64,000 bases of DNA from Sphingomonas sp. LC-1. GTDB taxonomy: Bacteria > Pseudomonadota > Alphaproteobacteria > Sphingomonadales > Sphingomonadaceae. The stretch is taken from positions 62,001 to 126,000 of the forward strand of contig NZ_JANZXB010000003.1 in assembly GCF_025371035.1 (NCBI RefSeq), written 5' to 3'. The notes under the pieces are model-generated. The model was given only the letters and a program-made list of their open reading frames with translations, was not told the origin of the DNA and made no database searches. Positions 684 through 23,763 of this stretch are shown here, piece by piece. Both the position numbers and the translations under genes were made by a program. The number at the start of each line of letters is the position of its first letter. Within the stretch, counting starts at the first letter, position 1.

Positions 684-685
684 AG

Positions 686-2651
<1,966 letters not shown>

Positions 2652-8203: not shown

Positions 8204-8226
8204 CCGGCATCCGCCGCCCGCTGGAG

Positions 8227-8246
8227 GCCCCGGCCTTCGCCGGGGC
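8227..8246. terminator. Hairpin after pcaF (terminator or REP-like)
   Basis: Perfect 8-base inverted repeat GCCCCGGC / GCCGGGGC with a CTTC loop, 23 bases after the pcaF stop and between convergent pcaF and the tannase gene. There is no T-run, so it may be a repeat element rather than a classical terminator. The core stem recurs at 57838-57855. Confidence 0.5.
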
Positions 8247-8306
8247 GAATTGTTCACGAGGACGGATCAGACCGGGGCAGGATGACGGCAGGCTGATCCA
8301 CCCTGG

Positions 8307-10082
8307 TCATCCCGCCGTCGCCGCGACGCAACGGAACGCCGCCGCTTTCTCCGTATCCGTTGCCCCCGGGATCGGGCGCGCAACCAGCGGATAGGGGCAG
8401 AGCGGTCGGGTGCGGCCGGGCCAGGGCGTCATCGGCCCGGCGGCCGCCTCGATCCGGTCGGGGGCGGCACCCTGTTCGACCCAGCGGACCAGCGCGGCGA
8501 AGGCGTCGAACTGGTCGGTTGCGGGGCCGCCCTGGCAATGCGCCATGCCGGGCACCGGGAAGACGCGGACGAAGGATGCGGCGCGGCCCCCGTTGCGGCG
8601 GTCGACGTCGCTCCACCAGGCGATCGTGTCGTTGATGGAGAACACCGGGTCCGACGCGCCATGGGGCACGAGCATCCGGCCGCCATGCGCACGGAAGCGG
8701 CTGAGGTCGCTCGAGCGCGCGGAGATGTCCTCCCACGCCGAACGCGGAAAGCCGGGTGCCGTGGCGAAGATCGCCGCCGGATCGCGATCGAAGTCGTAGC
8801 GGAGCTGATAGTCCAAGCCGGCCTGCGGCGTTGGTGCCAGGGCGCGGGGCGGGGTCGAAAAGATCGTCGCCAGCGCGGGCGCGCCCATGCTCGCGTTGAT
8901 TGCCGGGACGGGCGATGTCGTCAGGCCCAGCTTCCAGATGCGCCAGCCGGTGTCGGCGAGGCCGGCATCCCAGGGGTAACTGGCGTAGAGCGGCTTGCCG
9001 CGGCTGTCATGCGGACCGCCGAATGCCTTTGCCAGTGCATCGATCTGGGCGGGGGCGAGACAACTCGCCTGTTTGGCGCCGCTGCACTGCCGGGCGCGTA
9101 GGGCACGCAGCACATCGGGCGTGCGGCATTGCGCGAAGTTGCCGACCAGCCCGTCGGCGAGGCCGTCCTTGGCATCGCACGCCGCCAGCACCGCCGCGCG
9201 CGCCAGCGACAGGTCGCCGTCCGAAAAGGCCTGCGCCAGCCGCGAAATGGGAATGCTGGTCTCGCCCGGTGTCCGGACCAGGGCGGCATAGGTCTGCGTG
9301 TCCCAGGCTTCGGCGATTGCCGCCTTTGGTAGCGCGAAGCCGGGCGCTGCAGCGAGGATGCCGTCGAACGCGTCCGGATAGCGCTGGGCGAAGGCCATGC
9401 CCTCCTGCCCGCCCTTCGAACAGCCCGCGAAATAGCTGCGCGCGGGATCGCCGCCATAGTGGCGGCGCAGGATCGCGCGCGCCGCGTCGTAGCTGGCCTT
9501 CAGCGAGGCATGGCCATAATCGGCCCGTGCCTGCGCATCGAAGCCGAACGACACGACGCCGCCGCGCGCCGGGTCGGCGTTGGTCGCGTTCGAATGCCCT
9601 GAATCCTGGCTGATGACGGCATAGCCCTCCGCCAGGGCGGTCGCGCCGCCGGTTGCCGGGCCGACCGCGTTGCCGACCTCGCCATTGGTCCCGCCGCCAC
9701 CTTGGTACACGAAGCGGCGGTTCCAGGCGTCGGGAAGGCGCATGCGGAAATGGATGGCATAGCGCTGCCCGTCCTGCCCGGTGCGTTCGTGCATGACGCC
9801 GGAGATCTCGCAATGCGCTGGCAGCGGTGCGGTCTTCGCCCCAAACCCCGCGTCGACGACGAGGCCCGCCGCATGGTCTTCTGCGGTCTGAATGTGCAGC
9901 GTCGGATCGCTCCACCCACTGGCGCCGAGCAGCGCGGCGCATGCTCTTGGCGCAGGCATGGCCGCGGCGGCCGGCGTCTCGGGCTGGACCCGTCCTGCCA
10001 GCGCCATGCCGGTCAGTGCGGTGCCCGCGAGCATCGCGGCCATGGTGATCGCCCCTCGCATCCTGTTCGCTCCCATCGTCAT
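8307..10082 (-). CDS. Tannase/feruloyl esterase family hydrolase
   Basis: Exported serine esterase (591 aa) of the tannase/feruloyl-esterase family, which hydrolyses phenolic esters such as gallate, ferulate or chlorogenate esters. The start 10082 gives a hydrophobic signal-peptide region (about residues 10-30) and overlaps the upstream DUF3237 stop (ATGA). The nucleophile is S222 in GCSKGGQ, with the preceding cysteine typical of the family. Later segments GASDPVF and MAHCQGG are the likely acid and histidine regions. Its placement beside the ferulate genes suggests release of hydroxycinnamates in the periplasm or outside the cell. The exact substrate cannot be read from sequence. Confidence 0.88.
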   Translation of the reverse strand: MTMGANRMRGAITMAAMLAGTALTGMALAGRVQPETPAAAAMPAPRACAALLGASGWSDPTLHIQTAEDHAAGLVVDAGFGAKTAPLPAHCEISGVMHERTGQDGQRYAIHFRMRLPDAWNRRFVYQGGGGTNGEVGNAVGPATGGATALAEGYAVISQDSGHSNATNADPARGGVVSFGFDAQARADYGHASLKASYDAARAILRRHYGGDPARSYFAGCSKGGQEGMAFAQRYPDAFDGILAAAPGFALPKAAIAEAWDTQTYAALVRTPGETSIPISRLAQAFSDGDLSLARAAVLAACDAKDGLADGLVGNFAQCRTPDVLRALRARQCSGAKQASCLAPAQIDALAKAFGGPHDSRGKPLYASYPWDAGLADTGWRIWKLGLTTSPVPAINASMGAPALATIFSTPPRALAPTPQAGLDYQLRYDFDRDPAAIFATAPGFPRSAWEDISARSSDLSRFRAHGGRMLVPHGASDPVFSINDTIAWWSDVDRRNGGRAASFVRVFPVPGMAHCQGGPATDQFDAFAALVRWVEQGAAPDRIEAAAGPMTPWPGRTRPLCPYPLVARPIPGATDTEKAAAFRCVAATAG

Positions 10083-10618
10083 GCCACTCGATAAACGGTG
10101 ATACGCACCGCCGGGCCGTCCGCCGGATCGGCCGCCCCGACCGTGCCGAGGAAGATCGCCTCGTTCAGCCATTGATGCTTGCCCAGCGGCACTTCGAATA
10201 CCGGGGTCGTCCGGATATAGCCGCCATGCACAATACCGGTGTTGCGGATATGGATCAGCGTCCCGTCGCGTTCGCGCATCAGGTAGCTCGCCTCCAGCAT
10301 GGTAACGCCATCGGTACGCACCAATTGCCAGTCCATGCCTTCCGGCAGGATGGTGCCAGACAGGCGGGGGCCGTCGAACCGGCCGCCGGTGATCGGAATG
10401 CGGATACGCTTGCCGAGTGGCGTTGCGCCGACCTCCTCGGCCTTGCCCAGCGTCACGATCGCTTCATAGGCGAATTGCAGGCCGATGCTGGTCAGCCGCG
10501 CCGGTGCGGCCGCCGCCGCCCCAGGGAGCACAGCCGCCCCCGCCAGCGCGGACGATACGCCCAGCAGCGTGCGCCGCGTGCAACCCTCGTCACCAGAACC
10601 GGTCGTCGCATCCGTCAT
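10079..10618 (-). CDS. DUF3237 family protein with Tat-like signal
   Basis: A 179-residue protein with an N-terminal twin-arginine-like signal (RRTLLGVSSALAGAAVLPG, residues 16-34) followed by a DUF3237 domain: PITGG, SGTILPEG.DWQ and a PVFE...GKHQWLN segment. DUF3237 proteins are small beta-barrel-like proteins of unknown biochemical role. It sits just upstream of and overlaps the tannase gene, so the two form an operon. A 15-base palindrome (10660-10674) lies 42 bases upstream. A second DUF3237 gene lies at 19445 in the same catabolic block. Confidence 0.85.
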   Translation of the reverse strand: MTDATTGSGDEGCTRRTLLGVSSALAGAAVLPGAAAAAPARLTSIGLQFAYEAIVTLGKAEEVGATPLGKRIRIPITGGRFDGPRLSGTILPEGMDWQLVRTDGVTMLEASYLMRERDGTLIHIRNTGIVHGGYIRTTPVFEVPLGKHQWLNEAIFLGTVGAADPADGPAVRITVYRVA

Positions 10619-10659
10619 CCCGCATCCCTTCCTATCCCGCGATCGATCGCCGCGAGTCT

Positions 10660-10674
10660 GCTATGAAACATAGC
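10660..10674. promoter_or_regulatory. Candidate MarR operator, site A (perfect palindrome)
   Basis: GCTATG-AAA-CATAGC, a perfect 6+3+6 inverted repeat 42 bases upstream of the DUF3237-tannase operon start. The same motif, with one change per site or half-site, occurs at 12852, 12956 and 17978. Inference: an operator for the MarR protein encoded at 23051. Confidence 0.6.
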
Positions 10675-10705
10675 TAAAACGCTCGGGATGGCAAGGCGGG
10701 AAACA

Positions 10706-11704
10706 TCAACCCGCCGGACGCTCCTTTTGCGCGAAGATGCGTTGCAGCCAGCGGTCGAGCATGGGCACCCACGCCCCGACCGGCAGCGCCGCCGGGCCGA
10801 CGCCGAAACCATGCCCGCCTTCGGCCAGGAAATGCGCCTCGACGGGGCGACCGGCGCGGCGAAGCGCCGCCATCATCATCAGGCTGTTGTCCGGTACGAC
10901 CGCATCATCGTCCAGCGCGTGGAGCAGAAAGGTCGGCGGCGTGGTTGCCGTCACATGCTCCGCCGGGGATCGCCTGGCCACCGCTGCCGCATCCGCGGCC
11001 TTGCCCAGCAGCTTTTCCGCAGACAGGGCATGAGTGAAGGGCGCCGCCGCAGCGATCACCGGGTAGATCAGCGCTGCGGCATCCGGTCGCGCGTCGATCC
11101 GGTCCGTCGAGTCGCGCGGCGGATAGACCGTCTGGCCGAAATCGGTCTCCAGCGTCGCCGCCAGATGGCCGCCCGCCGAAAAGCCGAGCACCGCGACCTT
11201 GTGCGAATCCAGCCCGTCCCTGATCGCGGCGGCACGAACCATACGCAGCCCGCGCTGCGCATCCTGCAGCGGTACGTCGGCGCGATTTGTCCAGCCTTCC
11301 CCAGGAAGGCGGTATACCAGCACATAGACGGTATAGCCGAGCGCGGTCAGCCGCCCCGCTATGTCCAGCCCCTCATTGCCGATCGAAAGAAAGGTATAGG
11401 CCCCGCCGGGAATGACCAGCACCGACGCCCCGTTGGGGTGGGTGGGCGTGAAGCGACGCAGACCCGGTTTGTCGATATTGCGCAGGAACGTGGCCGGATC
11501 CTTCGGTGGGACCGGCGCGGGGCGGAACCCGCCACCCGGCGGTGCGCCGTCCCACAATGGCAGAAACGGCGCCGCCGTCCATGCCGGTGGCGGGGCAGTG
11601 CGCTCAGTCACCATCACCGCAGACGCCTGCGCATTCGCAAGGGACGGCAGCATCGCGAGGGCCAATAGCGGCACGGCGGCATGCCGAAACGAACGAAGGG
11701 TCAT
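10706..11704 (-). CDS. Exported alpha/beta hydrolase (BD-FAE-like esterase)
   Basis: A 332-residue secreted esterase-type hydrolase with a signal peptide (about residues 1-26, ending in LANAQA). It has an oxyanion-type IPGGAY segment near 98-103 and nucleophile S176 in GFSAGGH. The arrangement resembles the BD-FAE/acetyl-xylan-esterase-like group. DALDDDAVVP and EGGHGFG segments near the C-terminus give the likely acid and histidine. It is transcribed with the neighbouring hydrolases, 21 bases after the HSL-type gene. Likely task: hydrolysis of acyl or hydroxycinnamoyl esters; substrate not determinable. Confidence 0.82.
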   Translation of the reverse strand: MTLRSFRHAAVPLLALAMLPSLANAQASAVMVTERTAPPPAWTAAPFLPLWDGAPPGGGFRPAPVPPKDPATFLRNIDKPGLRRFTPTHPNGASVLVIPGGAYTFLSIGNEGLDIAGRLTALGYTVYVLVYRLPGEGWTNRADVPLQDAQRGLRMVRAAAIRDGLDSHKVAVLGFSAGGHLAATLETDFGQTVYPPRDSTDRIDARPDAAALIYPVIAAAAPFTHALSAEKLLGKAADAAAVARRSPAEHVTATTPPTFLLHALDDDAVVPDNSLMMMAALRRAGRPVEAHFLAEGGHGFGVGPAALPVGAWVPMLDRWLQRIFAQKERPAG

Positions 11705-11725
11705 TACGGGAATCCTGTCGAAAGG

Positions 11726-12784
11726 TCATGCTACGACGCCATCGCCGCCAAAGGCGCGGCGCAAGGCGGCGATCTTGGCCGCGGTGAAGCGTTTCGCCAG
11801 CCCTGTTTCGGGAGCGACCGCGTCGAACCCGTGAAATGCGCCCGGCGTCACGACCAGTTCTGTCGGTACCGCCGCGGCGATCAGGCGGCGGGCATAGTCG
11901 ACATCCTCGTCGACAAAGAGATCGACCGACCCGACCCCGATGAAGGTCGGCGGCAGACCGGACAGATCGGTGATCCGGGCCGGCACCCCGGCGGCAGGGA
12001 CGTCGCTAGCACCGGCGGGGTGGCCGAGGAACGACGTCCAGCCGAAGACATTGGCGGGCGCGTCCCAGCCGATCCGGCCAATGAACGGCGGCACCGTCCG
12101 CGTGCTGCCGGTCCGGTCGTCAAGCATCGGATAGATCAGCACCTGCGCGCAGAGCGGCACGCTGCGCCGATCGCGCGCCATCAGCGCGAGCAGGGCGGCA
12201 TGGCCGCCGCCCGCACTCTCCCCCAACAGCGCAATCCGGGCCGGGTCGACGCCAAGGTCCGCGGCATGGGCGTGCAGCCACAGGAGCGCGGCATGATTGT
12301 CCGCCACCGACCCGATGTAGGTCGTCTCTGGCGCCAGTCGATAGTCGACGGTCACCACCACGCAGTCGAGTTGCCGCGCGATGTCCTGGCACGGCGCGAT
12401 CGATCCGCGCGCGGACCCGACGATATAGCCGCCGCCGTGCGTGTGCAGGATAGCCGGGCGGCGCGTGCCGGCGCGGGCGTTTATGACGTAGACGGTGACG
12501 GGCGGCTGTCCCGCCGCCCCGGGAATATGTTGCTCGGTATAGGGAATGTCGGTTGCGGGCGGCGGGATCGGGCCGCTGCGCATCGTGCGATAGGCTTGGG
12601 TGATCGGCGGCATCGCCGCGATCATCGCTTGAATCTTCTCTGCCGCCGGGCGGAGTTCGGGCGCGACCGCGTCGAGCGCGCCGGGCATCGTCGCCGCCGC
12701 CGCGGCGCGTGCGGCCGGGGGCAGCATCGCACCGAGTCCCGCCATCGCCGCCCCCCGCAGCACCTCTCGCCGTAACAGCGTCAT
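11726..12784 (-). CDS. HSL-family alpha/beta hydrolase
   Basis: A 352-residue hormone-sensitive-lipase-type esterase with HGGGY oxyanion motif (116-120) and nucleophile S190 in GESAGGG. It starts with MTLLRREVLRGAAMAGLGAMLPPAARA, a signal-like segment. ATG 12784 has AGAGGG a few bases upstream; a longer open frame to 12862 lacks a convincing start. It is the first of four leftward hydrolase/DUF3237 genes and is divergent from the TBDR at 13133, with candidate operator sites in between. Probable role: hydrolysis of small aromatic esters in the ferulate module. Confidence 0.85.
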   Translation of the reverse strand: MTLLRREVLRGAAMAGLGAMLPPAARAAAAATMPGALDAVAPELRPAAEKIQAMIAAMPPITQAYRTMRSGPIPPPATDIPYTEQHIPGAAGQPPVTVYVINARAGTRRPAILHTHGGGYIVGSARGSIAPCQDIARQLDCVVVTVDYRLAPETTYIGSVADNHAALLWLHAHAADLGVDPARIALLGESAGGGHAALLALMARDRRSVPLCAQVLIYPMLDDRTGSTRTVPPFIGRIGWDAPANVFGWTSFLGHPAGASDVPAAGVPARITDLSGLPPTFIGVGSVDLFVDEDVDYARRLIAAAVPTELVVTPGAFHGFDAVAPETGLAKRFTAAKIAALRRAFGGDGVVA

Positions 12785-12851
12785 CGTCACCCTCTCCGAT
12801 CGGTGCGCGGTTCGTGACCGGCACCTGTATCCGTCATAATACCGGAAACTG

Positions 12852-12866
12852 GCTATGTTCAATAGC
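12852..12866. promoter_or_regulatory. Candidate MarR operator, site B
   Basis: GCTATG-TTC-AATAGC: one mismatch from a perfect 6+3+6 inverted repeat, 68 bases upstream of the HSL-type hydrolase start. A further overlapping CTATAGC follows it. Same motif as site A. Confidence 0.55.
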
Positions 12867-12955
12867 TATAGCATTGGTCGCGGAGACGTGCCCAATCGAT
12901 CAATGCCGCGGCTGGCGATCGCGCGCATCACCCGTTGCAACCGTTTGTAAATTTA

Positions 12956-12970
12956 GTTATGCCTCATTGC
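12956..12970. promoter_or_regulatory. Candidate MarR operator, site C
   Basis: GTTATG-CCT-CATTGC: each half differs by one base from GCTATG / CATAGC. It lies 163 bases upstream of the TBDR start, in the divergent promoter. It is the weakest of the four sites. Confidence 0.4.
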
Positions 12971-13132
12971 AGTTGGAGCATGCCAACAGAGGAGAGGTGC
13001 CGTGACGGAATCGTCGCCGGCCTGCGGTGGCCGCGTGCTGCGCGGGGCCGCAGTGCCGCAATGCCGCAATGCCGCGTCGAACGCGTGCCTCTCACTCGCA
13101 TCGGAACGACAACCGACTCGGGGAGGACTATC

Positions 13133-15520
13133 ATGCGAACACTGACGTTGCTGCTGACGGGAACCGCGCTCATCGCCTTCACCGGTGCTGCCTCCGCCCA
13201 GGACACGACACCCGCCTCCGCCCCCCAGTCGCCCGCGACGGCGACCGCCGCCACCGACGCCAGCACGACGGGCGACATCATCGTCACCGGCCAGAAGACA
13301 TCCGAACGCCTGTCACGCGCGCCGATCGCGATCAGCGTCGTGTCGCAGGATTCGCTGACCCGCCAAGGCGTCGATTCCGCGTCGTCGCTCGCTACGACCG
13401 TGCCCAACCTGCAACTCAGCGCCAACGGCTTCGCGGTGCGCGGCATCGGCAGCAACAACAGCTTCAGCGGCTATTCGACCGTCGCGACGCAGATCGACGG
13501 CATCTACGAACCCTCGGCGCAGGTCCTGTCGCTGGGCCTCTTCGATATCGGCGCGGTTGAGGTGCTGCGCGGGCCGCAGGGCACCGTCTATGGTCGCAAT
13601 GCGACCGCCGGCGTCGTCAACATCAATACCGCCGATCCGCGCTCCACCCGCGGCGTCACCGCCGACCTGCAGGTCGGGCGCTTCAACGAAGTCCGCGCCC
13701 GCGCCGCCGTCGACCTGCCGGTCAGCGACGCATGGAAGCTGCGCTTCGCTGCCTATCGCCAGGTCGATGATGGCGTCGACCCCCGCTACGGCGCGCAAAA
13801 CGGCTATGGGAAGACCGATCAGGCGGGCCTGCGCGCCACGTCGCTGCTCGACGTCGGGCCGGTCACTTGGCGCCTGTCGCTGAACTACGGCCAGAACCAG
13901 GGGACGATTCCGGCCAGCTACCTGACCAGCATCAACTATTACCCGCAGGGCAATCTCGTCGCCGGTACTTTCGGCCCGCGTCAGGTGATCGCGAAGGATG
14001 CGCTCAACGTCGGGCAGGCGCAGGTTCAGGACAACCGCATCGACCTTAATTATTATGCGGCGCGCTCGCGACTGGTATGGCAGGCGGCAGATGGCCTGTC
14101 GCTGACCTATCTTGCCGGTTACACCCTGCTGAAGAACAACGGGATCGACGCGGCGACCGGCGTGTTCACCCAGGAATCGATCAACCGCCGCATGGAAAGC
14201 TGGTCGCACGAAGTCGACCTCAATTACGATCGCGGCATCCTGAACCTCGTATTGGGCGGCTTCCTGTATCAGGACCGCCAGCCCTCGGGGATACGCCTGC
14301 TCCACGCCGGCGACACCGCTCCTGCGCCGTTCAATACCGCCTATAATCTGGTCGGTGCCAAGATCGCCGGCACCGGCACCGGCATTTCGACGATCAGCGG
14401 TGTCGACGTCGTCACCAGCTATCGCGGGCAGGGGACGAAGTCGCAGGCGGTATTCGGGCAGGGCACCTTGGAAGTGCTGCCCGGCCTGAAGCTGATCGGC
14501 GGTATCCGTTCGACCTGGGAACAGGTCAACGCGCGCAACGTCGAGCTGGTCTGCCCCGGCGACACCATCAACCGCCAGAACATCACGTCGACCACCTGTC
14601 CCGGCATCCCCTTCGTCTACGCCCTGTCGAACGACGCCGCACGGCCCGAGTCGAAGTTCGACAACATCAGCTGGAAGGTCGGCGCGAACTATGAAGTGAG
14701 CCCGACCACGCTGGTCTATGCGACGGTGAGCACGGGCTTTCGCGGCGGCGGGCTGGAGGCGAGCGGCAATGCGCCCCAATACCGCCAATATCGCCCGGAA
14801 ACCGTCACCAATTACGAAGCGGGCATCCGCACCACGCTGATGGACGGCAAGCTCTATCTCAGCGCCACCGGCTTCCACATGGACTATAAGGACCTGCAGG
14901 TGTCGAGCGTCGTGCTCAACCCGCTGACCAATCAGGTGTCGGCGGTGACGACGAACGCGGCAACGGCGCGCCTGCGCGGCATCGAGCTGGAGGCGAGCCT
15001 GCGTCCGACGCCGAATGACCGGATCAGCGGCTATGTCTCGTATCTCGACGCGCGGATCAGGTCCTTTCCGTCGGCGCCGGACAATCTCAATTCGGCCAGC
15101 GGCAATTATAATGGCTTTGCGCCACTCTTCGGCTTCCAGCCGCTGCCGTCCAACCTGACGCTGGACGCTTCGGGCAATCGCCTGGCGAACGCCCCCGAAT
15201 GGAGCGGTCGCTTCAGCTACGCCCATACCTTCGACCTCGGCCGCAAGGGGCGGGTGATCCCCAGCGTCGATTTCTACGCCCAGTCGCACACCTATAGCGA
15301 CATCCAGAATTACGCGCAGAGCCGGCGCGACGCCTATACCAAGACCGACCTCAATCTGCGGTTCGAGGATGCCGACTCGCGCTATTCGATCACCGCCTTC
15401 GTCAACAATGTCGAGGACAGTCGCGTCCCCAACACGCTGGTGACGGTGTGGAGCTCGACCACCGCCAATTACGATCCGCCGCGCACCTATGGCGTCCGGC
15501 TCGGCATGTCCCTACGCTGA
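13133..15520 (+). CDS. TonB-dependent receptor (ferulate/phenolic-ester module)
   Basis: Outer-membrane active transporter (795 aa). It has a signal peptide ending near ASAQD, a plug with the TonB-box-like DIIVTGQK, and plug segments LSRAPIAISVVS, NLQLSANGFAVRGIGSNN and VEVLRGPQGTVYGRNATAGVVNI. A 22-strand-type barrel follows, ending in YGVRLGMSLR. ATG 13133 is preceded by GGGAGGA. The neighbours (esterases behind, vanillate/ferulate genes ahead) suggest import of a plant phenolic or its ester. SYK-6 is known to need TBDRs for some lignin-derived compounds. The exact substrate is unknown. Confidence 0.92.
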   Translation: MRTLTLLLTGTALIAFTGAASAQDTTPASAPQSPATATAATDASTTGDIIVTGQKTSERLSRAPIAISVVSQDSLTRQGVDSASSLATTVPNLQLSANGFAVRGIGSNNSFSGYSTVATQIDGIYEPSAQVLSLGLFDIGAVEVLRGPQGTVYGRNATAGVVNINTADPRSTRGVTADLQVGRFNEVRARAAVDLPVSDAWKLRFAAYRQVDDGVDPRYGAQNGYGKTDQAGLRATSLLDVGPVTWRLSLNYGQNQGTIPASYLTSINYYPQGNLVAGTFGPRQVIAKDALNVGQAQVQDNRIDLNYYAARSRLVWQAADGLSLTYLAGYTLLKNNGIDAATGVFTQESINRRMESWSHEVDLNYDRGILNLVLGGFLYQDRQPSGIRLLHAGDTAPAPFNTAYNLVGAKIAGTGTGISTISGVDVVTSYRGQGTKSQAVFGQGTLEVLPGLKLIGGIRSTWEQVNARNVELVCPGDTINRQNITSTTCPGIPFVYALSNDAARPESKFDNISWKVGANYEVSPTTLVYATVSTGFRGGGLEASGNAPQYRQYRPETVTNYEAGIRTTLMDGKLYLSATGFHMDYKDLQVSSVVLNPLTNQVSAVTTNAATARLRGIELEASLRPTPNDRISGYVSYLDARIRSFPSAPDNLNSASGNYNGFAPLFGFQPLPSNLTLDASGNRLANAPEWSGRFSYAHTFDLGRKGRVIPSVDFYAQSHTYSDIQNYAQSRRDAYTKTDLNLRFEDADSRYSITAFVNNVEDSRVPNTLVTVWSSTTANYDPPRTYGVRLGMSLR

Positions 15521-15536
15521 CCATCAGGAGAGAAGG

Positions 15537-16613
15537 ATGAACGCCATCGATAGCGTGACCGCCGCGCCGCGGGCCACCTGGCCGCTCGACGCCTGGTATG
15601 TTGCCGCCAGCACCGAAGAGGTGGGAAGCAAGCCGCTCGCCCGGCAGATTACGGGGCTGCACATGGTGTTCTTCCGTACCGGCGGCGGCGTCGTCACCGC
15701 GCTGGAGGATTTCTGTCCACATCGCGGCGCGCCGTTGTCGCTCGGCTTCGTGCGCGGCGAGACGTTGGTGTGCGGTTATCATGGGCTGGCGCTCGACTGT
15801 CGGGGGCGCTCCGACTCGATGCCCGGGCAGCAGGTCGGCAAATTCCCCTCGGCACGCCACTTTCCGGTGATCGAGCGCTACGGCTTCGTCTGGGTGTGGC
15901 CGGGCGATCCGGCACAGGCGAGCGCGGACAAGCTGCACCCATTGCCCTGGGCGGAGAGTCCCGACTGGGCCTATGGCGGCGGGCTGTTCCATATCGCGTG
16001 CGATTATCGGCTGATGATCGACAATCTGATGGACCTGACACACGAAACCTATGTCCATGCCAGCAGCATCGGGCAGAAGGAGATCGACGAAGCGCCGGTC
16101 AAAACCGAGGCGACCGGCGACGAGGTCGTCACGAGTCGTCACATGGAGAATGTGGTCGCGCCGCCCTTCTGGCGCATGGGGCTGCGCGGCGCGGGCCTGC
16201 CCGAGGATGCGCTGGTCGACCGCTGGCAGGTCTGTCGCTTCACGCTGCCGAGCCACGTCATGATCGAGGTCGGCGTCGCGCTGGCGGGGGAAGGCGGCTA
16301 TCACGCCGATCCGGCGAAGAAGGCGTCGAGCATCGTCGTCGACTTCATCACGCCGGAAACCGAGACGTCGCACTGGTATTTCTGGGGCATGGCCCGTCAG
16401 TTCGCGGTCGACGACGCCGCGCTGACCGACACGATCCGCGACGGGCAGCGCAAGATCTTCTCCGAGGATCTCGAGATGCTCGAACGGCAGCAGCGCAATC
16501 TGTCGCAATATCCCGATCGTAAGTTGCTGAAGCTCAACATCGATGCCGGCGGCGTGCGGTCGCGGCTGATGATCGATCGCGCGATCGCGCGGGAGCAGGC
16601 TGCGGCGAAATAA
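15537..16613 (+). CDS. vanA: Rieske oxygenase, vanillate O-demethylase oxygenase subunit-like
   Basis: Rieske non-haem iron oxygenase (358 aa). The Rieske cluster ligands are C60-x-H62 (CPHRG) and C79-x2-H82 (CGYHG). The mononuclear-iron region DNLMDLTHETYVH follows near residues 162-174. Length and the WYVAA N-terminus fit VanA/LigM-independent vanillate demethylases that convert vanillate to protocatechuate. ATG 15537 follows AGGAGAGAAGG. No vanB-type ferredoxin-reductase gene is adjacent or elsewhere in the window, so electrons must come from a partner encoded elsewhere. Syringate or another methoxybenzoate is an alternative substrate. Confidence 0.85.
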   Translation: MNAIDSVTAAPRATWPLDAWYVAASTEEVGSKPLARQITGLHMVFFRTGGGVVTALEDFCPHRGAPLSLGFVRGETLVCGYHGLALDCRGRSDSMPGQQVGKFPSARHFPVIERYGFVWVWPGDPAQASADKLHPLPWAESPDWAYGGGLFHIACDYRLMIDNLMDLTHETYVHASSIGQKEIDEAPVKTEATGDEVVTSRHMENVVAPPFWRMGLRGAGLPEDALVDRWQVCRFTLPSHVMIEVGVALAGEGGYHADPAKKASSIVVDFITPETETSHWYFWGMARQFAVDDAALTDTIRDGQRKIFSEDLEMLERQQRNLSQYPDRKLLKLNIDAGGVRSRLMIDRAIAREQAAAK

Positions 16614-16656
16614 GCCTCGTTACCAGCATGACATGACCAGAAAGGCAGAAGCGCCG

Positions 16657-17955
16657 ATGCAGGACCCGCGAGCGATTATCGACCGTGCCGACATGTCGCG
16701 GTTTCAATGGGGAATCGTCGCGACGATGGTCGGGCTGAATGCGCTCGACGGGTTCGACGTCCTGTCGATCAGCTTCGCCTCGCCCGGCATCGCCGCGGAC
16801 TGGGGCATTGATCGCGCGGCCCTCGGCATCGTGTTGTCGATGGAGCTGGTCGGCATGGCGATCGGCTCGCTGCTGCTGGGCGGGGTCGCCGACCGGATCG
16901 GGCGTCGCACGACGATCCTCGGCTGTCTGGGCGTCATGGCCGCGGGCATGCTGGGTGCGGCGAGTGCTGGCGGGATCATGGTGCTGTCGCTGTGGCGGGT
17001 GCTGACCGGGCTCGGCATCGGCGGTATGCTGGCCGCGACCAATGCAGCGGTGGCGGAGGCGGCCAATGCCCGGCATCGCTCGCTCGCCGTGGTTCTGATG
17101 GCGGCGGGCTATCCCATCGGCACGATCGTCGGCGGATCGGCCTCGGCGCTGTTGCTCGGCTGGTATGACTGGCGCGCGGTCTTCCTGTTCGGGGCGGTAT
17201 GCAGCGTGCTGTTCGTGCCGCTGGTGCTGTGGCGTGCGCCGGAATCGGTCGCGTTCCTGCTGCATCGCCGGCCGCCCGATGCGCTGGCGCGGGTCAATGC
17301 GACGCTGGCGCGGATGGGCCACCCCCCGGTCGATGCGCTACCCCCGGCCGAACCCCGGACGGCAAAGGTGCCGGTCATGGCCCTGTTCGCGCCCGACCTC
17401 AGGCGGACCACGCTGTTGCTGACGCTCGCCTATCTCGCGCATATCATGACCTTCTACTTCATCCTGAAATGGATCCCCAAGATCGTTGCGGAAATGGGCT
17501 TCCCCGCCCCGCAGGCGGCGGGCGTGCTGGTGTGGGCAAGTATCGGCGGCGCGACCGGATCGCTGATCCTGGGGTTGCTGACCGGCAAGGTCCGGCTGCT
17601 CGGGCTGACTATCGCGGCGATGCTGTTGTCGACGGCGCTGGTGATCGTGTTCGGCCGCACGCAGAGCGATCTTGCGACCTTGTCCCTCGTGGCAGCAGCG
17701 GCCGGTTTTGCGACCAATGCGGGTGTCGTCGGCCTTTACGCCCTGATCGCGCGCAGCTTTCCGACGGGGGTACGCGCTTCGGCGACCGGCTTCGTCATCG
17801 GGGTGGGGCGCGGTGGATCGGCGCTCGCCCCGGCGTTGGCGGGGGTACTGTTCGCCGCGGGGCACGGGTTGCAGCTCGTCGCGGTGCTGATGAGCTTCGG
17901 CTCGCTGATCGCGGCCGTGGCTTTGATCGTGCTTGGGGATCGAAAGCGCGATTGA
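16657..17955 (+). CDS. MFS transporter, aromatic acid:H+ symporter type (VanK/PcaK-like)
   Basis: Twelve-helix major facilitator (432 aa from ATG 16657; an in-frame ATG at 16633 would add 8 residues but has no ribosome-binding site, while AGAAAGG precedes 16657). The DGFD segment in helix 1 and the GxxADRIGRR loop 2-3 motif are characteristic of the AAHS family that imports 4-hydroxybenzoate, protocatechuate and vanillate. It lies between vanA and vanillin dehydrogenase. Likely it brings vanillate, ferulate or protocatechuate across the inner membrane. Confidence 0.87.
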   Translation: MQDPRAIIDRADMSRFQWGIVATMVGLNALDGFDVLSISFASPGIAADWGIDRAALGIVLSMELVGMAIGSLLLGGVADRIGRRTTILGCLGVMAAGMLGAASAGGIMVLSLWRVLTGLGIGGMLAATNAAVAEAANARHRSLAVVLMAAGYPIGTIVGGSASALLLGWYDWRAVFLFGAVCSVLFVPLVLWRAPESVAFLLHRRPPDALARVNATLARMGHPPVDALPPAEPRTAKVPVMALFAPDLRRTTLLLTLAYLAHIMTFYFILKWIPKIVAEMGFPAPQAAGVLVWASIGGATGSLILGLLTGKVRLLGLTIAAMLLSTALVIVFGRTQSDLATLSLVAAAAGFATNAGVVGLYALIARSFPTGVRASATGFVIGVGRGGSALAPALAGVLFAAGHGLQLVAVLMSFGSLIAAVALIVLGDRKRD

Positions 17956-17977
17956 CCGCGCTGCCATTGCCGATTAA

Positions 17978-17992
17978 GCTATGTACCATAAC
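17978..17992. promoter_or_regulatory. Candidate MarR operator, site D
   Basis: GCTATG-TAC-CATAAC: one mismatch from the perfect repeat. It lies only 16 bases before the vanillin dehydrogenase start and next to its ribosome-binding site (GGAGAGG, 17997-18003). Binding here would block the promoter or the leader of the vdh-DUF3237-ferB-ferA operon. Confidence 0.6.
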
Positions 17993-18007
17993 AAATGGAG
18001 AGGCAGC

Positions 18008-19432
18008 ATGGCTATGACAGGTTCGCCACTGTCCGGCAGGACGTTCACCCGTAACAACCCCGTCACCGGCGCCGTCGCGACGACCGCCCCGGCCTTCGAC
18101 CCAGTCGATGCCTTCGCCGCGGTCGAATCCGCTGCCGCCGCGTTTCCTGTATGGTCCTCCCTTGGACCCAACGCCCGCCGCGCCGCGCTGACCAAGGCCG
18201 CCGATGCGCTGGCGGGCAAGGCCGACCAGTTCGTCGATGCGATGATGGGCGAGATCGGCGCGACCGAGGGTTGGGCGCGCTTCAACCTGATGCTCGCCGT
18301 GTCGATGGTCCGCGAAGCCGCCGCGCTGACGACGCAGATCGCGGGTGAGGTCATCCCTTCCGACAAGCCCGGCTGTATCGCCATGGCTGTGCGCGAGCCG
18401 GTGGGCGTGATGCTCGGCATCGCGCCGTGGAATGCGCCGATCATCCTCGGCGTCCGCGCGATCGCGGTGCCGCTCGCGTGCGGCAACACGATGGTGCTGA
18501 AGGCGAGCGAGCAATGCCCGCGCACCCACAGCCTGATCGCCGAGGCCTTCGCCGAAGCGCTGCCCAAAGGCGCCGTGTCGATCGTCACCAATGCTCCCGA
18601 GGATGCCGGCGAAGTCGTCGGCGCGCTGATCGATCATCCCGCGGTTCGCCGCATCAATTTCACGGGATCGACGCATGTCGGCCGCATCATCGCACGACGC
18701 GCCGCCGAGCATCTGAAGCCGGTGCTGCTGGAACTGGGCGGCAAAGCGCCGTTGATCGTGCTGGACGATGCCGATCTCGATGAGGCGGTGAAGGCGGCTG
18801 CGTTCGGGGCGTTCATGAACCAGGGCCAGATTTGCATGTCGACCGAGCGGATCATCGTCGTCGACAGCGTCGCCGACGCCTTTGTCGAGAAGTTCGTGGC
18901 CAAGGTCGGTACGATGCCCGTCGGCGACCCGCGCGAGGGCAAGACGCCGCTCGGCGCGGTGGTCGATCGCAAGACGGTCGATCATGTGATGTCGCTGATC
19001 GATGACGCCGTTGCCGCAGGCGCGGTGCAGGCCATCGGCGGCGAGGCGAACGGCGTGCTGATGCCCGCGCATGTCGTCGACCGGGTGACTCCCGACATGA
19101 AGCTGTTCCGCGACGAAAGCTTCGGGCCGGTCGTCGGCGTCATCCGCGCCCGTGACGAAACGCACGCGATCGAACTCGCCAACGACACCGAATATGGCCT
19201 GTCGGCGTCGGTCTTCACCCGCGATACCGCGCGCGGCCTGCGCGTCGCCAGACAGATCAAATCGGGCATCTGCCACGTCAACGGTCCGACCGTGCATGAC
19301 GAGGCTCAGATGCCGTTCGGCGGAGTGAAGGCATCGGGCTATGGCCGGTTCGGCGGACGCGCGGGGATCGATGCCTTTACCGAATTGCGCTGGATCACGA
19401 TCGAGACCGAGCCCGGTCACTATCCGATCTGA
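18008..19432 (+). CDS. vdh: Vanillin dehydrogenase (aldehyde dehydrogenase family)
   Basis: NAD(P)-dependent aldehyde dehydrogenase (474 aa) that would oxidise vanillin and 4-hydroxybenzaldehyde to the acids. Catalytic residues are E242 in LELGGKAP and C276 in GQICMST; the FTGST NAD motif is near residue 220. ATG 18008 has GGAGAGG upstream; an in-frame ATG at 17981 lies inside the operator-like motif. It is first gene of the vdh-DUF3237-ferB-ferA operon, which is the basis for the specific name. Salicylaldehyde or benzaldehyde dehydrogenase is the family alternative. Confidence 0.9.
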   Translation: MAMTGSPLSGRTFTRNNPVTGAVATTAPAFDPVDAFAAVESAAAAFPVWSSLGPNARRAALTKAADALAGKADQFVDAMMGEIGATEGWARFNLMLAVSMVREAAALTTQIAGEVIPSDKPGCIAMAVREPVGVMLGIAPWNAPIILGVRAIAVPLACGNTMVLKASEQCPRTHSLIAEAFAEALPKGAVSIVTNAPEDAGEVVGALIDHPAVRRINFTGSTHVGRIIARRAAEHLKPVLLELGGKAPLIVLDDADLDEAVKAAAFGAFMNQGQICMSTERIIVVDSVADAFVEKFVAKVGTMPVGDPREGKTPLGAVVDRKTVDHVMSLIDDAVAAGAVQAIGGEANGVLMPAHVVDRVTPDMKLFRDESFGPVVGVIRARDETHAIELANDTEYGLSASVFTRDTARGLRVARQIKSGICHVNGPTVHDEAQMPFGGVKASGYGRFGGRAGIDAFTELRWITIETEPGHYPI

Positions 19433-19444
19433 GGGGGCGGCACG

Positions 19445-19966
19445 ATGTCGAGCCTGCCCCTGATGCTTGCCGCCATCGCGTCTGTCGCAGCCGGTGACGC
19501 CGATGCGCCCGTCGCCCCGCAGCTGACGCCGGTATTTACCCTGCGCGTCGAGATCGCCGCTCCGGTCGAGCAGGGCGAGATCGATGGCGGGCGGCGCCGG
19601 TTTATCCCTATCACGGGCGGCACCGTTAGCGGTGCGCGGATCAGCGGCACCGTCCTGCCCGGCGGCGGCGACTGGCAGACCATCTATCCCGGCGGGTTCA
19701 CGCGGGTGGAGGCACGCTATTTCCTGAAGGCTGCGGACGGCACCGTCATCGGTATCCACAATCCCGGCATCCGGGTCGCCAGCCAGGCGGTGACCGATCG
19801 CATCGCGCGGGGCGAGCGCGTCGATCCCGAGGCTTATTACTTCCGTACCGCTCCGGTTTTCGATCCGCCGCCGGGCAAATACCAATGGTTGCGGGAAAAG
19901 ACCTTCGTCGGCCGCGGCATCCGCATGCCCGACCATGTCCTCATCGAAATCTTCGCCGTCGAATGA
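19445..19966 (+). CDS. DUF3237 family protein (second copy)
   Basis: A 173-residue DUF3237 protein with a signal-like N-terminus (about residues 1-22). Domain landmarks match the copy at 10079: PITGG, SGTVLPGGGDWQ, RVEARYFLKAADGT and PVFDPPPGKYQWL. It is 12 bases after vdh and 31 bases before ferB, so it is inside the ferulate operon. No enzymatic role is established for the family. Placement of both copies with hydroxycinnamate genes hints at an auxiliary role in handling phenolic intermediates, which is inference only. Confidence 0.82.
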   Translation: MSSLPLMLAAIASVAAGDADAPVAPQLTPVFTLRVEIAAPVEQGEIDGGRRRFIPITGGTVSGARISGTVLPGGGDWQTIYPGGFTRVEARYFLKAADGTVIGIHNPGIRVASQAVTDRIARGERVDPEAYYFRTAPVFDPPPGKYQWLREKTFVGRGIRMPDHVLIEIFAVE

Positions 19967-19997
19967 CATTGGCGACGCACAGAAAGGTTCAGCAGCA

Positions 19998-20834
19998 ATG
20001 ACCGAAACAAGCAGCAATGGCGTCGTCGCCTATGACGTCGAGGATCGCATCGCCTGGGTGCGGTTCAATCGCCCGGACAAGCGCAATGCCATGAGTCCCA
20101 CGCTCAATCGCGACATGATGGAGGTGCTCGACGCGCTCGAGTTCCGCGACGACGTCGGCGTGCTGGTGCTGTCGGGCGAGGGCGTTGCCTGGACCGCAGG
20201 CATGGACCTGAAGGAGTATTTCCGCGAGACCGAGGCGCAGGGCCTTGCCGGCACGCGCAAGGCGCAGCGCGAGAGCTATGGCTGGTGGCGGCGGCTGCGC
20301 TGGTATCAGAAGCCGACGATCGCGATGGTCAACGGCTGGTGCTTCGGCGGCGGCTATGGCCCGCTGTTCGCCTGCGACCTAGCCTTTGCGGCGGAAGAGG
20401 CGAAGTTCGGCCTCAGCGAGATCAATTGGGGCATCCTGCCCGGCGGCGGCGCGACCAAGGTGGCGCAGGAACTGATGCCGTTCCGCAAGGCGATGTACCA
20501 CGCGATGATGGGCGAGAATATTGACGGTCGCACCGCCGCCGAATGGGGTCTGGTCAACGAAGCGCTGCCGCTCGATCGGTTGAAGGATCGGGTGACCGAG
20601 GTGGCCAAGGTCCTGCTCGCCAAGAACCCGGTGGCGCTGAAGGCGACGAAGGACGCGATGAAGCGCGTCGGCGTGATGAGCTACGACGATGCCGAGGACT
20701 ATCTGGTCCGTGCGCAGGAAGCCGCCAATTCCTACGACAATGACGGTCGCAAGGAGGGCATCCGCCAGTTCATCGATGAGAAGAGCTACAAGCCGGGGCT
20801 CGGCGCCTATGACAAGGACCGCGCGAAGGCCTGA
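19998..20834 (+). CDS. ferB: Feruloyl-CoA hydratase/lyase (enoyl-CoA hydratase family)
   Basis: Crotonase-fold enzyme (278 aa) that hydrates feruloyl-CoA and cleaves it to vanillin and acetyl-CoA. The segment GLSEINWGILPGG holds the catalytic glutamate E141, matching E143 of Pseudomonas HCHL, and NGWCFGGGY is the oxyanion region. The C-terminal DEKSYKPGLGAYDKDRA also matches HCHL-type proteins. As I recall it, Pseudomonas HCHL has serine just after the GGGF stretch; here it is glycine (GGGYG). The open frame extends to 19935, but that part overlaps DUF3237. The gene is followed by three hairpins and ferA. Confidence 0.93.
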   Translation: MTETSSNGVVAYDVEDRIAWVRFNRPDKRNAMSPTLNRDMMEVLDALEFRDDVGVLVLSGEGVAWTAGMDLKEYFRETEAQGLAGTRKAQRESYGWWRRLRWYQKPTIAMVNGWCFGGGYGPLFACDLAFAAEEAKFGLSEINWGILPGGGATKVAQELMPFRKAMYHAMMGENIDGRTAAEWGLVNEALPLDRLKDRVTEVAKVLLAKNPVALKATKDAMKRVGVMSYDDAEDYLVRAQEAANSYDNDGRKEGIRQFIDEKSYKPGLGAYDKDRAKA

Positions 20835-20844
20835 CGCCACAAAC

Positions 20845-20939
20845 CCCCTCCTCTTCGGGGGAGGGGAAGGGGGTGGGGGAGTCTCATGGAGACTGTCGCC
20901 CGCGTCCGCACCCCGACCCCTCCCCCTGGCGGGGAGGGG
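20845..20939. repeat. Three consecutive hairpins between ferB and ferA
   Basis: The 120-base gap holds CCCCTCC/GGAGGGG (20845-20866), AGTCTC-ATG-GAGACT (20880-20894, perfect) and CCCCTCCCC-CTGGC-GGGGAGGGG (20917-20939, perfect 9-base stem). The last ends two bases before the ferA ribosome-binding site (AGGAGG, 20943-20948). They could tune ferA translation or mRNA ends, or be an inserted REP-like repeat. Confidence 0.6.
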
Positions 20940-20954
20940 CGTAGGAGGAACTCG

Positions 20955-23054
20955 ATGCCCGATCTTTCCCGCCTGCTCACCCCCCGTTCGGTTGCGATCG
21001 TCGGCGCTTCGCCGACGCCCGGCGCGCTTGGCAATGCCGTGGTGCGCAACCTGGACCGCCACGGCTATGCCGGGGCCATCCACCTCATCAATCCCAAGCG
21101 CGACACGATCGACGGGCGGCCGTGCCTGAAGACCATTGCCGACTTGCCCGAGGGCGTCGATGCGGCGGTACTCGCCATCCCCGGACCGGCGGTGCTGGAA
21201 GCGGTGCAGGCGCTCGCAGCGCGTGGCGTGGGTGCGGCGATCATCTTTTCCGCCGGGTTCGCGGAAGGGGGCGAGGAGGGGCTGGCCGCGCAGGCGGAGG
21301 TTGCGCGCATCGCCGCTGAGCATGGCATGATCGTCGAGGGGCCGAACTGCCTCGGGATGGTGAACCACGCCGCCTGCGTGCCGTTGACCTTCGTCGAGAC
21401 GCCGGTGATCGACCTGACCGGCAAGCCCGCGGTCGGCATCGTCAGCCAGTCTGGGGCGATGGCGGTGGTGCTGGCGACGACGCTGGACGCCAAGGGGCTG
21501 GGCATCACCTTGTCGGTCTCGACCGGCAACGAGGCGGCGTCGGGCGTCGAGGACTATGTCGAGCATCTGATCGACGATCCCGCAACGCCCGTCATCGCCA
21601 TGATCGTCGAGCAGTTCCGCCAGCCCGCCCGTTTCCTGGTGCTGGCCGAGCGAGCGGCGGCCATGGGCAAGCGGATCGTGCTGCTCCACCCCGGCACGTC
21701 CAACGCCGCGCGGGAGAGCGCTGCGACCCACACCGGCGCGATGGCCGGCGACTGGCAGGTGATGCGCACCAAGGTCGAGCGCGCCGGCGTGGTGCTGGTC
21801 GACAGTCTGGAGGCGCTAGGCGACGTCGTCGAAATGGCGGTGCGGGCGCAGCCGGTGCGGGCGGGTGGCACCGCCGTGCTGACCGAAAGCGGCGCGTTCA
21901 AGGCGCTGGTGCTCGATCTCGCCGAACGCATCGGGCTCGACCTGCCCGCGATCGACGGCGCGGCGGCGGCTGCCATGCGCGCGGCGATCCCTGATTTCAT
22001 CCCGGTGTCCAACCCGATGGACCTGACGGCGCAGGCGCTGGTCGACCCCGATCTGTATCGCCGCACGATGGTTCCGTTGCTGGAGGACGAACGCTACGCC
22101 GCGCTGGTCCTGGGGATCATCCAGACCGATCGGGCGACCGCCGCGCGCAAATTCCCGGCGATCATCGATGCGGTCGTGGCGTTGAAGCCGCAGAAGCCGG
22201 TGATCTTCGCGGGCATCGACGATGGGGCGGACGTGCCCGCCGAGTATATCGCGGGGCTGCGTGCGCTCGGCGTGCCCTATTTCCCGACCGCGGACCGGGC
22301 GTTCCGTGCGCTACGGCATCTGACGCGGGCGGCGGCGCGCGACGGCACGCGGGCCGAGGTGGCGCCGATCGCGCTCGACCTGCCAGGCGGTGTCATTCCC
22401 GAATATCGCGCCAAGCAGGCGCTGGCGCCGATCGGCATCCCGTTCCCGGCGGGCGGCTTCGCCGCAACCGTCGCCGAGGCACAGGCGATCGCTGATCGTA
22501 TCGGCTATCCCGTCGCACTCAAGGCGCAGGCCGCAGCGCTCAGCCACAAGAGCGATGCCGGCGGCGTCTTGCTCAACATCGGCGATTCCGAGGCGCTGGC
22601 TGAGGCATGGCAGCGGCTCCACGCCAATGTCGCCGCCTATGACCAGGGCATCCGGCTGGACGGCGCACAGGTCGAGGCAATGGGCCGCCGCGGCATCGAA
22701 GTGATCGTCGGCGCGCGTAACGATCCCGACTGGGGGCCGGTGATCCTGATCGGCTTCGGGGGCGTGACCGCGGAACTGTTCCACGACGTCCGCCTGCTTC
22801 CCGTCGACCTGACCCGCGAGGCGATCGTCGCCGAATGGCGGGCACTGCAGCAGGGGGCGCTGTTCGATGGCTATCGCGGCAGTCCCGCGCTGGACGTCGA
22901 GGCGCTGGCCGATCTGGTCGCGACGTTGGGGCGCGTAATGACCGGGACGCCCGCGATCCGTGAGATCGACCTCAACCCCGTCATCGTCCATTCGCGGGGG
23001 CAGGGGGTGGTCGCGCTCGACGCGCTGATCCTGACCGATACGCTATACGATTAG
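20955..23054 (+). CDS. ferA: Feruloyl-CoA synthetase, ADP-forming type
   Basis: A 699-residue ADP-forming acyl-CoA synthetase. In order: CoA-binding domain (SVAIVGASPTPG from residue 11), succinyl-CoA-ligase-like domain (GIVSQSGAM, about 158-166; phosphorylatable-type H259 in THTGAMAG) and a C-terminal ATP-grasp domain (about 470-699; DLNPVIVH near the end). SYK-6 FerA is a 708-residue member of this superfamily, unrelated to the AMP-forming Fcs of pseudomonads, and is encoded directly after ferB, as here. ATG 20955 has AGGAGG upstream. Its stop overlaps the end of the convergent MarR gene by four bases. Confidence 0.9.
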   Translation: MPDLSRLLTPRSVAIVGASPTPGALGNAVVRNLDRHGYAGAIHLINPKRDTIDGRPCLKTIADLPEGVDAAVLAIPGPAVLEAVQALAARGVGAAIIFSAGFAEGGEEGLAAQAEVARIAAEHGMIVEGPNCLGMVNHAACVPLTFVETPVIDLTGKPAVGIVSQSGAMAVVLATTLDAKGLGITLSVSTGNEAASGVEDYVEHLIDDPATPVIAMIVEQFRQPARFLVLAERAAAMGKRIVLLHPGTSNAARESAATHTGAMAGDWQVMRTKVERAGVVLVDSLEALGDVVEMAVRAQPVRAGGTAVLTESGAFKALVLDLAERIGLDLPAIDGAAAAAMRAAIPDFIPVSNPMDLTAQALVDPDLYRRTMVPLLEDERYAALVLGIIQTDRATAARKFPAIIDAVVALKPQKPVIFAGIDDGADVPAEYIAGLRALGVPYFPTADRAFRALRHLTRAAARDGTRAEVAPIALDLPGGVIPEYRAKQALAPIGIPFPAGGFAATVAEAQAIADRIGYPVALKAQAAALSHKSDAGGVLLNIGDSEALAEAWQRLHANVAAYDQGIRLDGAQVEAMGRRGIEVIVGARNDPDWGPVILIGFGGVTAELFHDVRLLPVDLTREAIVAEWRALQQGALFDGYRGSPALDVEALADLVATLGRVMTGTPAIREIDLNPVIVHSRGQGVVALDALILTDTLYD

Positions 23055-23503
23055 TCGGTCGTCGCCCCCAACTGCTCGATCCGCTCCAGCAGGTCGAGCA
23101 GCAGCGCCCTTTCCACCTTGGTGAAACCGGCGAGCAGCCGGTCCTCATGGGCGTCGATCCGACGGATACAGTCGGCAAGCATGGCCGATCCCGCCGGCGA
23201 CAGTGCCAGCGTGAAGGCGCGGCGGTCGGCGGGATCGGTTTCGCGCAGGATCAGGCCGCTTTCGATCAGCTCGTTGATCAGCGGCACCATATTGGCGCGC
23301 TTGATGCCGAGCAGGCGGCCGACCGTCCCCTGGTTGATCCCCGGATTGTCCGAGACGACCGCCATAATGCCAAGTGGGATCTGGCGGATGCCTGTGCCGT
23401 CCAGCGCGTTGGCGAAATCGGTGGCAAAGACGGCGGAAGCGCGGCGCAGGCGATATCCGACCAGCCGGCCGAGTGTTCGGGTCTGGGAAACGGGTTCGAT
23501 CAT
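23051..23503 (-). CDS. MarR-family transcriptional repressor (FerR-like)
   Basis: A 150-residue winged-helix regulator of the MarR type: dimerisation helices at both ends, the recognition region NQGTVGRLLGIKRANMVPLINELIESGLI (about 67-95) and the wing DPADRRAF. It is convergent with ferA; stop codons overlap. In SYK-6, ferBA is controlled by the MarR repressor FerR, which responds to feruloyl- and p-coumaroyl-CoA, so a similar function is likely. ATG 23503 gives the usual MarR length; a TTG at 23581 would add 26 residues but lies inside an IS5-type transposase remnant. Confidence 0.85.
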   Translation of the reverse strand: MIEPVSQTRTLGRLVGYRLRRASAVFATDFANALDGTGIRQIPLGIMAVVSDNPGINQGTVGRLLGIKRANMVPLINELIESGLILRETDPADRRAFTLALSPAGSAMLADCIRRIDAHEDRLLAGFTKVERALLLDLLERIEQLGATTD

Positions 23504-23570
23504 GTCCGATGCAAAGCCATGTTCCCCGCGCCGCGTCAAATCCAGGGTCAGGTCCCGCAACGAGCCGATT

Positions 23571-23754: not shown

Positions 23755-23763
23755 TGGGCCGAT

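Follow-up and report, generated by a model that had tools for sequence, protein, structure and literature searches.

A common MarR-type operator at esterase, tannase, receptor and ferulate genes of Sphingomonas sp. LC-1 points to an enlarged FerC-like regulon

Sphingomonas sp. LC-1 carries a gene cluster in which enzymes for the hydrolysis of phenolic esters, a TonB-dependent receptor (TBDR) and the coenzyme A (CoA)-dependent ferulate pathway lie side by side, and this locus raises the question of whether ester cleavage, uptake and breakdown are controlled together. The cluster is located in a stretch of 64,000 nucleotides (nt) of contig NZ_JANZXB010000003.1 (positions 62,001 to 126,000), hereafter the window. 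A preliminary description of the window had joined these functions into one regulon on account of four palindromic sites, with the MarR protein encoded next to ferA as the proposed binder. The proposal is sustained by the presence of the operator core at 57 of 64 vdh promoters, by three site positions that recur in seven of seven complete clusters, by the core found in the corresponding gap of Sphingobium sp. SYK-6, and by a correlation between the core and the recognition helix of MarR proteins. From these comparisons, it is quite probable that one FerC-like MarR represses the esterase, receptor and ferulate genes together and is released by CoA esters. Feruloyl-CoA or coumaroyl-CoA is the likely inducer by analogy.

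The four sites (O1 to O4; Table 1) are found where they had been described, and differ from the proposed 15-mer GCTATG-N3-CATAGC at no position (10660), one position (12852 and 17978) or two positions (12956). Each lies in a gene-start region, 42, 68, 163 and 16 nt upstream of DUF3237, HSL, TBDR and vdh, respectively, as measured from corrected starts at 10618(-), 12784(-), 13133(+) and 18008(+). The distances of O1, O2 and O4 (42, 68 and 16 nt) fit a repressor that would block the promoter. The symmetric repeat is real, but conservation in relatives reveals that its true core is GYTAT-N5-ATARC, and that the 15-mer had too narrow a spacer and was matched too loosely. A window scan at up to two mismatches gives a fifth match at 15030, within the TBDR gene, and 9 of 100 shuffles attain the five matches of the window. 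The search of the whole genome suggested in the preliminary description returns 113 matches at this tolerance versus 183 for the reversed pattern, and is unspecific; taken literally, this check would have led to rejection of the proposal. The 15-mer with up to two mismatches is, therefore, no commoner than chance. A one-mismatch match on contig C47 (153546) falls within a molybdopterin oxidoreductase gene.

The exact core is a rare element. The 4.15 Mb genome holds eight copies (reversed control, 11), of which three are in the window, two in a second cluster on contig C16, and three elsewhere. The core is not enriched over the genome as a whole, yet five of its eight copies sit at two clusters. 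The Poisson probability of three or more cores in the 7.3 kb span ranges from 5e-7 (background of 8) to 1.2e-6 (background of 11), a value that is indicative only because it was calculated after the motif was seen. The other three copies were treated as background: C20:463 is inside a small HTH_3 open reading frame, C47:80318 overlaps the 3' end of a TBDR gene, and C22:1417 precedes an open reading frame with no Pfam family. Eight further genomes, hand-picked for holding such a MarR, contain 25 exact cores, 14 of them (counted by hand) at regulon genes by position, and 58 copies of the reversed control. Copy numbers range from one to eight across the nine genomes counted; in two (G199 and G045), the sole core is the one before vdh, and the SYK-6 genome has four, the one examined of which adjoins ferB.

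The same promoters were compared in related sphingomonads, as the preliminary description had recommended. The sampled loci (L numbers) comprise 40 stretches around relatives of the window MarR, stretches around ferB relatives, and 20 from other genera, taken around the best-matching MarRs; the alignment of MarR relatives used as the query for the latter includes one MarR of another subgroup and a stray one-residue row (L111:1-3). All were chosen independently of the motif, with the exception of the window and contig C16 (L016), which were chosen by it. Genes were placed by tblastn with the window proteins, and a vdh relative was defined by at least 70% identity over at least 380 amino acids. 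Among the 67 vdh loci, three (L054, L108 and L110) were dropped for having less than 100 nt of upstream DNA, and a partial one (L163) was not counted. Of the 64 remaining loci, 57 (55/62 without the window and L016) have the exact core in the 150 nt that precede vdh; the loci are related, some of them near-identical (L126-L129), and thus do not amount to 64 independent events. Six of the other seven have a site with one mismatch. By contrast, base shuffles of these upstream regions gave an average of 0.035 and a maximum of one, the reversed motif gave none, and alternative spacers of 2, 3, 4, 6, 7 and 8 were found in no locus or in one. In two draft genomes (G129 and G176), vdh-ferBA and marR are on different contigs and the core is kept before vdh-ferBA. 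The ferB copies within the genus that have no close vdh carry the core in 1 of 14 cases (L141), as counted by eye. Elsewhere in the family, exact cores precede other TBDRs (L054, L055, L073, L078, L146 and L147), MFS transporters (L113 and L114) and pobA (L162, L170 and L171), which suggests that the members of the regulon change while vdh-ferBA stays.

The esterase, tannase and receptor sites are likewise recurrent. A close relative of HSL, TBDR, DUF3237 or tannase was found in 16 loci, some of which represent the same place twice, and seven distinct complete clusters were distinguished: the window, C16, and those of Sphingomonas sp. Leaf10 (L148), Sphingomonas sp. Leaf9 (L181), S. panni (L182), an uncultured Sphingomonas (L183) and S. 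hankookensis (L184). In each of them, the HSL-TBDR gap contains two sites and the region ahead of DUF3237 a third, none deviating from the core by more than one mismatch. The core is exact on the HSL side in six of them and before DUF3237 in four, L184 having one-mismatch sites only, and in every cluster one half of the TBDR-side site is degenerate. In the esterase-DUF3237 gap, which is otherwise poorly aligned among eight loci, the conserved block coincides with the operator. The HSL-TBDR gaps of seven loci contain conserved blocks in addition to the operators. The distance from the start of O2 to the start of O3 is 104 nt in the window, 66 and 69 in two clusters, and 63 in four; given this variation, a consistent helical phasing is not claimed. 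In S. lacusdianchii (L150/L179), where HSL and TBDR are absent from the stretch, a two-mismatch site precedes DUF3237, and L221 and L222 each have a 60% identical MarR next to TBDR, DUF3237 and tannase, whose gap contains a site with one mismatch.

The HSL-TBDR gap also contains two further palindromes that are kept in the seven clusters (approximately 12935-12998), one resembling CGTTTGCAAACG and the other composed of GTTGG-N6-CCAAC followed by AGGAGAGG. The stability of a leader hairpin behind O3 is not above that of shuffles (z 0.60), and no Rfam match at positions 8000-25000 attains the gathering score of its family.

Contig C16 (L016) of the same genome harbors a second copy of the whole cluster, whose proteins are 77-95% identical to those of the window. 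One side holds HSL, esterase, DUF3237 and tannase, and the other TBDR, VanA, a reductase, MFS, vdh, ferB and an incomplete ferA, a frame of 507 amino acids at the contig end. The region before vdh and the HSL-TBDR gap hold exact cores, and one-mismatch sites are found before DUF3237 and on the TBDR side. Because the genome has a single MarR match at E<=1e-15, it is likely, judging from sequence, that one MarR acts in trans on both copies. A resolvase gene lies near the end of C16 opposite ferA.

The candidate binder has a MarR winged-helix domain (PF12802, 36.3 bits, cut-off 27; PF01047, 32.8 bits, cut-off 24.6). In the window as in many relatives, its gene lies next to ferA-ferB and is oriented convergently to ferA. 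It had been taken for the only local repressor; it does adjoin ferA, but a cupin-domain protein, possibly of the AraC type, is also encoded nearby. A helix resembling IKRANM, with single-letter variants, is present in the main group of MarR proteins, in FerC, and in diverged proteins of L123, L125 and L130, while MarR proteins that adjoin other ferB copies have helices resembling NRxSAMKL. With helix classes assigned from a simple pattern and a MarR considered near when within 9 kb of ferB, the 9 kb around ferB contained the exact core at 37 of the 47 places that have an IKRANM-type MarR near, at 2 of the 8 whose only nearby MarRs are of other types, and at 20 of the 29 that lack a nearby MarR (84 places in total). 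The first two classes differ with a Fisher value of 0.005. Conversely, of the 39 places that combine the core with a nearby MarR, 37 have the IKRANM-type helix. Of the 20 places that carry the core with no MarR near, 19 come from genomes in which a MarR with 49% identity or more is encoded at another place. The remaining one belongs to G185, whose MarR is 41% identical, shares the helix and is preceded by an exact core. In 201 genomes of the genus, marR and ferB are both present in 57, marR only in 2, ferB only in 8, and neither in 134; presence of marR was set at 49% identity or more (59 of 66 matched genomes), and the counts are uncorrected for ancestry.

Table 1. Operator sites and genes of the cluster, with window coordinates.
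Feature	Position	Strand	Remarks
O1, putative operator of DUF3237-tannase	10660..10674	.	exact core GCTATGAAACATAGC; conserved block in esterase-DUF3237 gap of 8 loci
O2, putative HSL-side operator in HSL-TBDR gap	12852..12866	.	exact core GCTATGTTCAATAGC
O3, putative TBDR-side operator	12956..12970	.	one half degenerate (GTTATGCCTCATTGC), one mismatch to core
O4, putative operator of vdh-DUF3237-ferB-ferA	17978..17992	.	exact core GCTATGTACCATAAC
Tannase / feruloyl esterase family protein	8307..10172	-	PF07519, 3e-107
DUF3237 protein, first gene of putative tannase operon	10079..10618	-	PF11578
Alpha/beta hydrolase (BD-FAE family), behind HSL	10706..11704	-	PF20434
HSL-type alpha/beta hydrolase (Abhydrolase_3)	11726..12784	-	PF07859; start corrected
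TonB-dependent receptor (TBDR)	13133..15520	+	PF00593, PF07715; start corrected
VanA-like Rieske O-demethylase	15489..16613	+	PF19112, PF00355
MFS transporter, aromatic acid type	16633..17955	+	PF07690; TIGR00895 310.6 bits, under its 418.55 cut-off
Aldehyde dehydrogenase, vanillin dehydrogenase (vdh) by context	18008..19432	+	PF00171; start corrected
Second DUF3237 protein	19445..19966	+	PF11578
ferB, p-hydroxycinnamoyl-CoA hydratase/lyase	19935..20834	+	NF006588, 464 bits, cut-off 276
ferA, CoA ligase, feruloyl-CoA synthetase by context	20886..23054	+	PF13549, PF13607, PF13380
FerC-like MarR regulator, proposed repressor, convergent with ferA	23051..23503	-	PF12802, PF01047; helix IKRANM
Cupin-domain protein, possibly start of AraC-type regulator	3-773	-	Pfam below cut-off; divergent from pobA, runs off window

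Published regulators are compared here as described in extracts of the cited papers. FerC of Sphingobium sp. SYK-6 is reported to bind upstream of ferB and to be released by CoA esters (PMC5048394). The gene that corresponds to FerC by position is divergent from ferB at 2.698 Mb, beside ferA (61% identity) and ferB (68%), and its product is 39% identical to the window MarR over 114 amino acids. In both organisms, the MarR gene adjoins ferBA, the recognition helix reads IKRANM, and the exact core is present, as GCTATAAGCCATAGC in the SYK-6 ferB-ferC gap and at the vdh-ferB promoter of the window; the SYK-6 site was read from the genome sequence and not from the published IR1 and IR2. The two systems differ in gene orientation, the SYK-6 gene being divergent from ferB and that of the window convergent with ferA, and in their reach: the extract names only the ferB promoter as a target of FerC, whereas in the window the core is also found at the esterases, tannase and receptor.

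Other MarR repressors share parts of this arrangement. In the DdvR/DdvT system of SYK-6, a MarR repressor governs a TonB-dependent receptor together with a catabolic enzyme (PMC6874591); the substrate, DDVA, and the genes are different, and the likeness is one of function. The CouR proteins of Rhodococcus jostii RHA1 and Rhodopseudomonas palustris are repressors of hydroxycinnamate genes with several operators (PMC4737184), and CouR structures are the best Protein Data Bank matches of the window MarR (5cyv and 6c28; 1.5e-14 for 6c28). The RHA1 box, cATTGA-N5-TCAATg, is nevertheless not that of the window (GYTAT-N5-ATARC), and the four RHA1 promoters described in the extract include neither esterases nor a receptor (PMC4737184). 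DesR of SYK-6 represses O-demethylation genes through inverted repeats of 15 bp, but its boxes, GTTTGTGTCACATAC and the like, are different, and its ligands are vanillate and syringate (PMC6888825). Saro_0803 of Novosphingobium aromaticivorans provides the top NCBIfam model for the window MarR (NF053777) with 82.9 bits, far under the 200-bit cut-off of the family; its repeat is GCAATA-N6-TATTGC and its ligand resveratrol (PMC10046596).

Several observations weigh against a single FerC-like repressor of the whole cluster. The closest SYK-6 relative of the window MarR is not FerC (39%) but a MarR encoded at 843 kb (47%; L160, approximately 9810-10562), which is divergent from a TBDR gene with only a one-mismatch core in the gap. 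The names FerC-like and FerC-type are consequently used for function and do not denote a proven FerC ortholog. Of the two arginines tied to CoA release in CouR, Arg36 aligns with R40 and Arg38 with I42 (5cyv numbering, counted by hand). The exact core is lacking at 10 of the 47 ferB places with an IKRANM-type MarR near, and is carried by two of the eight with only other MarRs near (L121 and L112); in the genomes of these two, a MarR of 49% identity or more is encoded at another place. The upstream region of vdh in L118 has no site, its best match having three mismatches, and none is present in the partial cluster of Sphingomonas sp. Leaf32 (L180), in which HSL and esterase are found and DUF3237/tannase were not. 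No operator precedes marR itself in the window. The degenerate half of O3 means that its assignment rests on conservation among the clusters and not on its own letters. Finally, the relatives share ancestry, so that the conservation counts are not independent.

The alternative that survives best keeps the MarR at the core but makes its inducer a free acid or ester, such as ferulate, vanillate or chlorogenate, instead of a CoA thioester. A MarR protein responding to free acids has a precedent in DesR (PMC6888825), one of the two CoA-linked arginines of CouR aligns with an isoleucine of the window MarR, and the closest SYK-6 MarR is, as stated, not FerC. Given that marR adjoins ferA-ferB in many relatives, that the core equals that of the SYK-6 ferB-ferC gap, and that FerC responds to CoA esters (PMC5048394), we regard a free ligand as unlikely.

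A division of the cluster between two regulators, with the MarR governing vdh-ferBA only and the similar boxes at HSL, tannase and TBDR belonging to another protein, would account for the greater variability of the TBDR and tannase sites relative to the vdh sites, and for the two additional palindromes of the HSL-TBDR gap. It is at odds with the identity of the core at these genes, exact at most HSL-side and several DUF3237 sites of the complete clusters, and with the 60% MarR that adjoins TBDR, DUF3237 and tannase beside a one-mismatch gap site in L221 and L222, and appears improbable. There is even less reason to assign the core to a member of another regulator family, such as the cupin-domain protein encoded next to pobA or a protein of the IclR type. 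The former is present in the window, and IclR repressors govern aromatic genes in sphingomonads (PheR, PMC13273656), but the core tracks IKRANM-type MarRs and the co-occurrence of marR and ferB, and none is found at pobA in the window of this genome, which makes such a regulator very improbable. That the sites are chance palindromes chosen by eye, as might be suspected from the abundance of the loose 15-mer in shuffles and the reversed control and from the 8 versus 11 exact cores, is contradicted by the fixed position of the core at 57 of 64 vdh loci, by the conserved block within a poorly aligned gap and by the confinement of five of eight cores to two short spans, and can practically be dismissed.

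Control by one FerC-like MarR thus remains the preferred reading, and a mechanism can be proposed. A MarR dimer would bind GYTAT-N5-ATARC with its A/T-rich flanks, and the four operators, in three promoter regions, would govern the putative transcription units of HSL and esterase; DUF3237 and tannase; TBDR, VanA and the MFS transporter; and vdh, DUF3237, ferB and ferA. In the absence of substrate, all these genes would remain repressed. Entering hydroxycinnamate, whether free or released from esters, would be converted by basal FerA into feruloyl- or coumaroyl-CoA, and the CoA ester would cause the repressor to leave the DNA, with a joint rise of uptake, ester cleavage and breakdown to vanillate. 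The MarR of the window would act in trans on the C16 copy in the same manner. As FerA and the receptor are themselves inside the regulon, induction would require basal FerA and basal uptake.

Some neighboring features deserve mention. The proposed regulon contains two DUF3237 proteins; members of this family (PinX, PhcF and PhcG) have been linked to decarboxylation in lignan and phenylcoumaran breakdown (PMC12607616). In L058, L065, L066 and L084, a second MarR of 30-32% identity adjoins the VanA relative, while VanA of the window has no adjoining MarR. Just upstream of marR (approximately 23565-23714) is the remnant of a DDE transposase C-terminus (PF13586, 23.9 bits, under the cut-off of 29.2), which may have altered the marR promoter.

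Control of ferulate genes by a MarR protein is already known from FerC, and that of a receptor together with an enzyme from DdvR. The new step, as read from the sequence comparison, is a single operator common to esterases, tannase, receptor and CoA pathway, corresponding to a predicted enlargement of a regulon of the FerC kind; a literature search at listing level turned up no published account of such an extended regulon.

Little is known of how the many TonB-dependent receptors of sphingomonads are matched to their substrates. A short core with one to eight exact copies per genome picks out candidate receptors and esterases for hydroxycinnamate esters from sequence alone, and it makes the control of uptake by a CoA thioester directly testable. 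Variants of the repressor and of the operator are also on offer for ferulate biosensors of the FerC kind. In Sphingomonas, a FerC-type repressor may well be the master switch of a phenolic-ester utilisation locus, an aromatic counterpart of the polysaccharide utilisation locus with its own receptor, esterases, tannase and CoA-dependent breakdown. Such a locus would be present here in two copies under one repressor acting in trans. Across the family, the core would remain constant at vdh-ferBA and be acquired by pobA, MFS transporters and other TBDRs.

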